Source: Methanobrevibacter sp.
GTDB lineage: Archaea > Methanobacteriota > Methanobacteria > Methanobacteriales > Methanobacteriaceae
DNA: 32,774 bases
Assembly: GCF_017410345.1 (NCBI RefSeq)
Contig: NZ_JAFQQZ010000042.1
Coordinates: forward strand, 1 to 32,774
Direction of reading: 5' to 3'
Below the pieces are notes generated by a model. That model made no database searches. It worked only from the letters and a program-made list of their open reading frames with translations, and was not told where the DNA came from. Every line of letters begins with the position of its first letter. The stretch's first letter is position 1. Shown one piece after another: positions 5,976-7,050 of this stretch. A program made the position numbers and the translations under genes.

Positions 5976-6044
5976 AATTACACCATAGCAAATTATTAAA
6001 AAATTTTCTAGATGATTAATTATAAGTAAGTAATCCTATTTAAT

Positions 6045-6086
6045 TGTTTCTTTTGAAACAGTTATAAATGAAACTATTGAAACTGT
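6045..6086. promoter_or_regulatory. Candidate MarR operator boxes around the marR TATA element
   Basis: GTTTC at 6046-6050 and GAAAC at 6055-6059 form the palindrome TGTTTC-TTTT-GAAACA. Two more GAAAC boxes follow at 6070-6074 and 6079-6083, so starts are spaced 9, 15 and 9 bases. ACAGTT (6058-6063) and AACTGT (6081-6086) add an outer inverted repeat. A TATA-like element (ATTTATAAC on the minus strand, about 6061-6069) lies between the two pairs, so bound repressor would block TBP. Sites are seen; the assignment to this MarR is inferred from position. Confidence 0.5.
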
Positions 6087-6257
6087 AAAAAAATGAGAGG
6101 AAAACAATATTATAACAAGTTTAAAACAATTTTACAAAGTTAAAGCAATTTTAAAGTCTTAAAAACTGTTTAATTTATAAATAAGAAAAAATGAATTAAT
6201 ATTGAAGGTTTTTATTGCTTAAATAAAAATATCCCTAAAAAAATCGGAGGCATCATC

Positions 6258-6335
6258 TTGAAACGAGAGGAAAAAGATGTTCTCAGAATATTCCTTGAAG
6301 TAATCAAGATTGTTATCTTGATGCTAAAGGATTAA
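6258..6335 (+). CDS. Possible 25-residue hydrophobic mini-protein, TTG start
   Basis: A short frame begins with TTG seven bases after a perfect GGAGG (6246-6250) and encodes 25 residues. The sequence opens KREEKDVLRIF and continues LEVIKIVILMLKD, a charged N-terminus followed by an aliphatic, probably amphipathic or membrane-associated helix and a charged end. There is no in-frame ATG, and the frame is closed upstream at 6192. A TATA-like element near 6172-6182 would give a leader of about 50 bases. The frame lies between the candidate MarR boxes and two hairpins. It is not a protein I recognise. Strong ribosome site and coherent composition argue for translation; short length and the TTG start argue for caution. 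Confidence 0.4.
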   Translation: MKREEKDVLRIFLEVIKIVILMLKD

Positions 6336-6454
6336 TAATGTAATTTGCCTGTCAAATAAGAAAAAAATTGAAGTTTTTTATATTTTTCCTTTGGTAAGTT
6401 TTTTCCTTCATCTTTAAAAAAATTTAAATACAATTAAACCTATAATAGAAATAA

Positions 6455-6497
6455 GAGAATTTTGATTCTTTCGGTTTCAAAATTGTCTCATTTTTTT
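6455..6497 (+). terminator. Hairpin with U run, possible terminator of a small transcript
   Basis: GAGAATTTTGA at 6455-6465 pairs with TCAAAATTGTCTC at 6477-6489 apart from a two-base bulge, and seven T residues follow at 6491-6497. It could end a transcript carrying the mini-gene or a short RNA starting near 6450 from the TTTAAATA element. Confidence 0.5.
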
Positions 6498-6512
6498 AGG
6501 GAAAATCACTGC

Positions 6513-6558
6513 TAAGAATTCCTTTGGAATTCTTAACTTTGGTTTTAATGCTTTTTTT
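6513..6558 (+). other. Perfect 10-bp hairpin upstream of dtd
   Basis: TAAGAATTCC (6513-6522) and GGAATTCTTA (6526-6535) form a perfect stem with loop TTT, followed by a T run at 6552-6558. It lies 72 bases before the dtd start. It may be a terminator, the end of a small RNA, or a leader element. Confidence 0.45.
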
Positions 6559-6606
6559 AAAATAATTTTTACCAAATATCATTTATAGTAATTTTTTGGA
6601 GATAAT

Positions 6607-7050
6607 ATGAAATTAGTCATTCAAAGGGTAACAAATGCCAGTGTGGAAGTTGAAGGAGAAATCACAGGCCAGATTGAAGAGGGATTGATGGTTTTAGTCG
6701 GCTTTGGCCAGACAGACACAGAAAAGGAAGTTGAATACTTGGCAAGAAAGCTTACAAAGCTTAGAATCTTCCCTGATGAAGAGGGTAGAATGAACCTTTC
6801 AGTAAAGGACATTGGAGGGAAACTTCTTCTTGTTCCTCAATTCACATTATATGGAAAAACCAAAAAGAACAGACCATCATTCCATAAGGCATTGGCTGGC
6901 GAGGAAGCAACTAAATTATTTGACTATTTTGTGGAAAAATGCAGTGAGGATGTTCCTTGTGAAACCGGTGTCTTTGGCGCATCCATGAAAGTGAGCCTAT
7001 TGAACAACGGTCCTGTGACAATACTGCTTGAAAAAGAGTTTGAAGAGTAG
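6607..7050 (+). CDS. dtd: D-aminoacyl-tRNA deacylase, DTD1 type
   Basis: A 147-residue protein of the bacterial/eukaryotic DTD1 family, which removes D-amino acids (and mischarged glycine) from tRNAs. It starts with the conserved MKLVIQRVTNASVEVEGE, has GKLLLVPQFTLYGKTKKNRP at 71-90 and ends with NNGPVTILLE at 133-142; the Gly-cis-Pro chiral filter (G135-P136) is present. The other signature is usually SQFTL; here serine 77 is proline. Length matches the family. ATG follows GGAG at the normal distance. The gene stands alone and is convergent with the next gene. A DTD1 in an archaeon is notable, since archaea mostly use the unrelated DTD2, so horizontal acquisition is plausible. Confidence 0.93.
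   Translation: MKLVIQRVTNASVEVEGEITGQIEEGLMVLVGFGQTDTEKEVEYLARKLTKLRIFPDEEGRMNLSVKDIGGKLLLVPQFTLYGKTKKNRPSFHKALAGEEATKLFDYFVEKCSEDVPCETGVFGASMKVSLLNNGPVTILLEKEFEE

Follow-up and report, generated by a model that had tools for sequence, protein, structure and literature searches.

The peptide gene, its site and its relatives

The stretch of DNA analysed here (the window) comprises 32,774 nucleotides of a Methanobrevibacter sp. contig (NZ_JAFQQZ010000042.1), and between two genes that Pfam assigns to a MarR regulator and a D-Tyr-tRNA deacylase (dtd) it carries the small cassette whose features are collected in Table 1. An earlier note, made from the letters alone, had picked out in this interval a 25-codon frame opening with TTG seven bases downstream of a GGAGG; both are confirmed, and the frame, which stops at 6335, reads (M)KREEKDVLRIFLEVIKIVILMLKD. 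Nine open reading frames of at least 20 amino acids overlap positions 6000–6700 of the window, and in DNA this rich in A+T the frame by itself is therefore no more than chance would give; it is raised above chance by its conservation in relatives. The tblastn search that the note had proposed, run over 149 genomes, found copies 80% identical in G004 and 58% identical in G007 (G000 is the window's own genome, other G numbers are relatives and C numbers are contigs), both of which occupy the same site between MarR and dtd as in the window. More distant matches include several copies in G011, and the weakest matches are chance. A second copy of the cassette lies in the window's own genome on contig C45. 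A 25-residue protein would be missed by gene finders, as the note had said.

Table 1. Features of the cassette in the window (positions are those of the window)
Feature	Positions	Strand	Basis or remark
Three CAAT[AT]T repeats, at 6105, 6127 and 6146	6105–6151	+	22 and 19 apart; ahead of promoter 1
TATA box TTTATAAA, predicted promoter 1 of the peptide mRNA	6174–6181	+	Position of the best TATA-like octamer
Predicted peptide mRNA, about 213 nt	6200–6412	+	Ends from TATA distance and conserved 5'/3' end pairing
End pairing, 5' strands: P1 TGAAGG (6203–6208), P2 TTGCT (6215–6219)	6203–6219	+	Covariation, 31 loci
Predicted leader target TCCCTAAAAAAAT of the antisense RNA	6232–6244	+	Perfect 13-bp complement at 6490–6502
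Shine-Dalgarno GGAGG	6246–6250	+	Sequence
25-aa peptide gene, TTG start, predicted toxin	6258–6335	+	ORF list, tblastn, profile, codon-position changes
End pairing, 3' strands: P2 GGTAA (6393–6397), P1 CCTTCA (6405–6410)	6393–6410	+	Covariation
TATA-like box TTTAAATA, putative promoter 2, of the antisense RNA	6423–6430	+	Conserved alignment block; kept in stand-alone copies
Predicted antisense sRNA, about 110 nt, predicted antitoxin	6449–6558	+	R2 match 6420–6554; fold
5' hairpin of the sRNA	6455–6489	+	Loop side (about 6468–6480) pairs with the start-codon region (about 6258–6270)
Antisense segment ATTTTTTTAGGGA	6490–6502	+	Faces TCCCTAAAAAAAT; duplex computation
sRNA terminator hairpin TAAGAATTC–GAATTCTTA and T run (6552–6558)	6513–6558	+	Fold; same design in relatives' sRNAs

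A profile built from 25 family peptides and searched over 151 genomes of the phylum (cut-off E ≤ 0.01) gave 32 matches, confined to two genera of one family, Methanobrevibacter (g1) and a second genus (g5). The 31 matches without an inner stop, 25 that had served to build the profile and six new ones, come from 21 genomes and form the test set used throughout; the excluded match, G017:C266, has a stop inside. G083:C76, one of nine matches above E 0.01, is chance-like, and G014:C224 was examined as a candidate and rejected. At least 37 loci in all, one of them frameshifted, were found in the two genera. The 31 peptides are 24–26 or 39–40 residues long, follow leaders of 52–70 nt, begin with ATG (23 loci), TTG (7) or GTG (1), and share an E-x-x-K-I core in which E is present in 30, K in 25 and I in all 31. 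Changes among them fall on codon positions 1, 2 and 3 in the proportions 41.6, 10.4 and 48.0%, a distribution that would be expected for a protein held to hydrophobic residues. That the frame is untranslated and the locus yields two regulatory RNAs only could be argued from the non-ATG starts of eight loci and from the presence of GGAG or GAGG within the last 18 nt of the leader in only 18 of the 31, but the scarcity of changes at second relative to third codon positions and the near-invariant E and I speak so clearly against it that we give this reading next to no weight. Taken together, the tblastn matches, the profile matches and the codon-position pattern bear out the reality of the 25-codon frame and rule out a chance open reading frame.

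The note had also described the product as a membrane or amphipathic protein. The amphipathic part stands: in 19 of the 31 peptides, that of the window included, the helical moment is higher (p ≤ 0.05) than when the same residues are permuted, and the mean hydrophobicity of the last 22 residues is positive in all 31. Insertion into a membrane is a guess, because the helix carries charged residues. All 31, at 24–40 aa, have the form expected of type I toxins, small (<60 aa) and hydrophobic or amphipathic. Pfam, NCBIfam and PADLOC recognized no family at E ≤ 10 in the four family peptides tried, such profiles being weak on proteins this short; of 377 pattern stretches in viral contigs, none could be confirmed with E ≤ 1e-3, a cut-off that is difficult to reach with a query of 25 aa; and the window locus had no match in a plasmid collection.

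Beside the MarR gene lies a palindrome (TGTTTC-TTTT-GAAACA, 6045–6060), likely the MarR operator, and the peptide's own TATA box is 114 bases beyond it. Among 14 genomes examined at this site, the MarR-dtd interval is filled in three (the window's, G004 and G007), and eight (G002, G003, G008, G009, G010, G011, G015 and G016) have a clean short gap there; three others were left uncounted, namely G018, where the contig ends, G012, where dtd is not adjacent, and G017, which is 57% identical. The arms TGTTTC/GAAACA are conserved with or without the cassette. Control of the peptide by the MarR regulator of the neighboring exporters, as the note had suggested, is unsupported, because operator, MarR and dtd are intact in the eight relatives in which the interval is empty, and we set it aside. 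The note would have taken a frame absent from relatives that keep the flanking genes as evidence against a real protein. Such absence is what the eight empty sites display, yet the peptide is under selection at the protein level; a test of this kind would mislead here, since the cassette is patchy in the manner of toxin-antitoxin loci. Other copies lie between other genes, and some sites are kept across species, as in the gap between the ferritin and lactate/malate dehydrogenase genes, which holds a locus in G015, G008 and G016.

Predicted promoters and pairing of the mRNA ends

Across copies the layout on one strand is a TATA box, a 5' end beginning TTGAAGG, a linker, a Shine-Dalgarno sequence, the peptide and a T-rich 3' region ending in CCTTCA, followed by a second TATA-like box, a hairpin, a linker-complementary segment and a terminator hairpin of the TAAGAATTC/GAATTCTTA type. 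The best TATA-like octamer starts 26 to 29 bases upstream of the 5' stem in 28 of the 31 loci. When the matrix learnt from this first promoter was applied to the sRNA, in DNA that is very rich in A+T, the TATA score was not above that of shuffles, and in the window the scan picked another octamer as best. Upstream of promoter 1 the hexamer CAAT[AT]T occurs 75 times in the 31 regions as against 9.3 ± 3.0 in shuffles, and arrays of it are found in many relatives, mostly with a phase of 19 bp; we read the array as a putative upstream element. A strict three-copy form of the pattern is common in genus g5 and occurs 120 times in G011, against 2 in the backwards control, and 0 times in the window's genome; four of the G011 arrays (L208, L209, L210 and L211) precede genes that we read as unrelated. 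Because the repeats are present elsewhere in other genomes, they are not specific to the cassette.

The first 26 nt of the predicted peptide mRNA pair with its 3' region as two helices around a T-rich internal loop. The outer helix is found as TGAAGG/CCTTCA, TGGAGG/CCTCCA, TGTAGG/CCTGCA and GGTAGG/CCTACC, and the second as TTGCT/GGTAA, CTTGCC/GGCAAG, GCCACC/GGTGGC and ACCATCTC/GAGATGGT. Over the 31 loci the mean energy of this end pairing is −15.3 kcal/mol versus −11.2 (sd 0.54) for permuted partners, a value equalled in 0 of 20,000 permutations; a single locus, G017_C235, is without it, and the window's own end pairing taken alone is not above shuffles (13 of 100 were as good). Activation by 3' processing, in the manner of hok, is unsupported, because the predicted accessibility of the Shine-Dalgarno sequence shows no consistent change when the 3' end is removed. 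A motif of the GTTGAATG type stands soon after the stop codon (about 6350–6365 in the window) in members of both genera, and the pairings found leave it unexplained.

The antisense unit

Behind every peptide of the test set lies a candidate antisense segment. In the window its predicted duplex with the leader extends beyond the 13 bp of Table 1 to cover the Shine-Dalgarno sequence and the start codon; at −32.6 kcal/mol (−35.6 with five codons included) it is the best among the 31 sRNA regions, and 0 of 200 shuffles equal it. As a test of specificity, each mRNA was matched in turn against the 31 downstream regions, and the best duplex was computed for every combination. The cognate duplex ranks first in 27 of the 31 loci, as would be expected of an antitoxin RNA that pairs specifically with its own toxin mRNA, and among the top two in 30 (G004_C175, G007_C150 and G012_C28 rank second); G011_1115k, at rank 15 of 31, has no cognate preference, and its segment is no better than chance. 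Cognate duplexes average −26.7 kcal/mol versus −15.8 (sd 0.61, minimum −18.5) for permuted partners, with 0 of 20,000 permutations equal; two controls, in which the downstream region was reverse-complemented (−13.5) or replaced by the upstream region (−15.4, 29 loci), do not improve on permuted partners. The preference persists when one locus per genomic site is kept (cognate first in 16 of 17), among loci that were found through the peptide or the 3' UTR and are unmatched by the sRNA model R2 (16 of 16), and within genomes that hold two or more loci (cognate best for 14 of 16). Individual loci differ in strength. When the first 19 were compared with 200 dinucleotide shuffles, 11 had no shuffle equal and two had one; the remaining six are weak (4 to 20 of 200 equal), the copy on contig C45 of the window's own genome being the weakest. 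The longest uninterrupted leader-sRNA helix ranges from 10 to 27 bp over the 31 loci, the maximum occurring in G012_C10, and chance may account for the shortest. We also considered, and set aside, that the paired segments are terminal inverted repeats of a mobile element, since they vary between copies, match within each copy and lie inside the leader.

The predicted sRNA folds with a z-score of −4.1, and 0 of 200 shuffles fold as well. The terminator-like hairpins that the note had seen downstream of the frame are indeed present, and their owner is this second, antisense unit, which the note had overlooked and on which an understanding of the locus turns; covariation in the terminator hairpin is weak (4 of 16 pairs changed on both sides). 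Two RNA models, R1 for the mRNA 3' region and R2 for the sRNA, were each built from 11 loci (that of the window among those for R2), and searches with them turned up further members. Of 138 genomes of the family, 11 contain R2 matches at E ≤ 0.01, and each of these 11 belongs to the genus of the window. Rfam at gathering scores has nothing at the locus, a tRNA being its sole match in the window. A scan of named genomes with one form of the terminator hairpin found 17 contigs, of which seven are Methanobrevibacter and match known loci; in the other ten both models give weak matches only, none of them adjacent.

Complementarity alone cannot separate an RNA that acts in trans from a cis switch, that is, one long transcript whose downstream segment folds back over the Shine-Dalgarno sequence with no separate sRNA. 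The 31 test loci, with both halves on one strand and in one order, and the second TATA box, with its non-significant score, would both suit such a switch, but two sets of observations stand against it. First, in a third peptide group (six of the 138 genomes: G004, G005, G008, G009, G012 and G016) the sRNA unit, which has a TATATA box and a GAATTC-TTTT-GAATTC hairpin of its own, is found upstream of the peptide, and the duplex computed with this upstream unit is −31.9 to −37.5 kcal/mol versus −13.3 to −19.2 for the downstream side. Because they are close copies (five have identical peptides), these six loci represent few independent events. The G005 peptide of this type is frameshifted and its sRNA is present, though the draft assembly may err by one base. 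Second, six copies of the sRNA stand without a working peptide (L028, L031, L032, L037, L038 and L041). L028 (G012:C5) is nearly identical to the G004 sRNA, the match beginning at the TATA box; it precedes dtd, and a type I restriction-modification island (L207; HsdM, specificity and restriction subunits by Pfam) lies between MarR and L028, in the place of the peptide gene. L041, alone in G011, has antisense letters identical to those of the complete locus G011_991k. L038 follows a complete locus as a second copy in tandem, and in L037 a deletion seems to have brought the 5' and 3' ends of the mRNA together. The swapped order and the lone copies show the unit behaving as a separate gene and are strong signs of a probably separate antitoxin transcript, to be weighed against the non-significant TATA score; we consider a cis switch very improbable and have set it aside. 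The window's own genome also has a third sRNA-like hairpin, a partial one (G000:C45:23469–23513), which is without a clear TATA box or peptide and may be only a similar terminator.

A predicted type I toxin-antitoxin system and its relation to known ones

The conserved peptide, the cognate antisense segment that covaries with its target, the movable sRNA unit, the pairing of the mRNA ends and the patchy presence of the cassette lead us to predict, with good confidence, that this is a type I toxin-antitoxin locus in an archaeon; it would work like a type I system, and its membership in the class is likely. Promoter 1 would give a short mRNA, closed by the pairing of its 5' and 3' ends, for a 25-residue amphipathic helix. 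This peptide, if made, might enter the cytoplasmic membrane and arrest growth or slow it. Promoter 2, which lies downstream of it on the same strand, would give the sRNA of about 110 nt, most likely made constantly, whose hairpin loop and linker would pair with the start codon, Shine-Dalgarno sequence and leader of its one mRNA and so keep ribosomes from entering. The duplex between leader and sRNA may then be cut by RNase III. An RNase III domain protein is found in 14 of 19 genomes of the genus, that of the window included (G000:C1:14083–14355); most archaea are not known to have RNase III, and its presence here is unusual. Passages of one paper state that the enzyme is needed for antisense duplexes in several bacterial type I pairs (PMC4147584). 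The message would be freed if the cassette were lost, or if stress reduced the sRNA or increased the mRNA, and an amphipathic helix with a charged face could then enter the membrane; the nearest picture, as far as passages of its description go, is TisB (PMC8309996).

The peptide might instead be a non-toxic small membrane protein, such as a modulator of a transporter or of stress, that is kept low by a dedicated antisense RNA. Toxicity is a prediction, the loci are chromosomal, and some, like those in the ferritin-dehydrogenase gap, are kept at one site across several species, all of which would fit such a protein. Against it stand the patchy presence with conserved flanks, the differing neighbors at different sites, and the five divergent copies in one genome, four of them with private antisense; moreover, retention of the sRNA where the peptide is deleted, decayed or frameshifted fits an addictive or toxic product better. 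We judge the non-toxic reading unlikely and favor a toxin-antitoxin pair.

No archaeal type I system was found reported in the titles, abstract openings and passages of open-licence PMC literature that were searched. We propose, with fair confidence, that these loci, at least 37 of them, form the first type I toxin-antitoxin family in Archaea, with new E-x-x-K-I peptides, an mRNA closed at its ends by two helices, and an antisense unit that is a free module, perhaps made workable by RNase III. If so, this module can lie downstream, upstream, in duplicate, or alone as a possible anti-addiction copy, and RNA-controlled toxins either cross the line between domains or arose twice. The loci would then offer small switches for growth arrest that can be tested in rumen methane producers, and their two-gene logic, with a private antisense for each copy and lone sRNA copies, would open addiction and anti-addiction to direct tests in an archaeon.

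Passages of a 2025 paper give type I systems as known only in Proteobacteria, Firmicutes and Tenericutes and add the cyanobacterial msoT1/msoA1 (PMC12390103). Like that pair, the present family is a type I claim outside the classical phyla; the likeness is one of description, and Microcystis is a bacterium. Both hok and aapA1 toxin mRNAs are closed by pairing of their 5' and 3' ends, as computed here for the archaeal family; unlike in hok/sok and aapA/IsoA, the peptide gene and the antitoxin unit do not overlap, and unlike in hok-type systems, predicted loss of the 3' end brings no consistent opening of the Shine-Dalgarno sequence. TisB is described in a passage as an amphiphilic helix of 29 aa whose four charged side chains lie along a narrow strip (PMC8309996), and IstR-1 as having 21 nt complementary to the tisB 5' UTR (PMC4147584). 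The archaeal helix of 24–40 aa with its charged face, by description, and the uninterrupted sRNA-leader helix of 10–27 bp resemble this E. coli type I pair, but tisB and istR-1 are divergent and IstR-1 binds at a standby site far from the Shine-Dalgarno sequence, whereas here, in another domain of life, both units lie on one strand and the duplex would cover the Shine-Dalgarno sequence and start codon. In zorO/orzO, shoB/ohsC and dinQ/agrB, according to passages of the same paper, the antitoxin gene adjoins the toxin gene without overlapping it and pairs in the leader, the genes are divergent, and the initiation site stays clear of the antitoxin (PMC4147584). The archaeal loci share the adjacent, non-overlapping antitoxin and the pairing in the leader, and differ in being tandem on one strand; on our best reading this same-strand layout and the peptide family are both new for type I systems.
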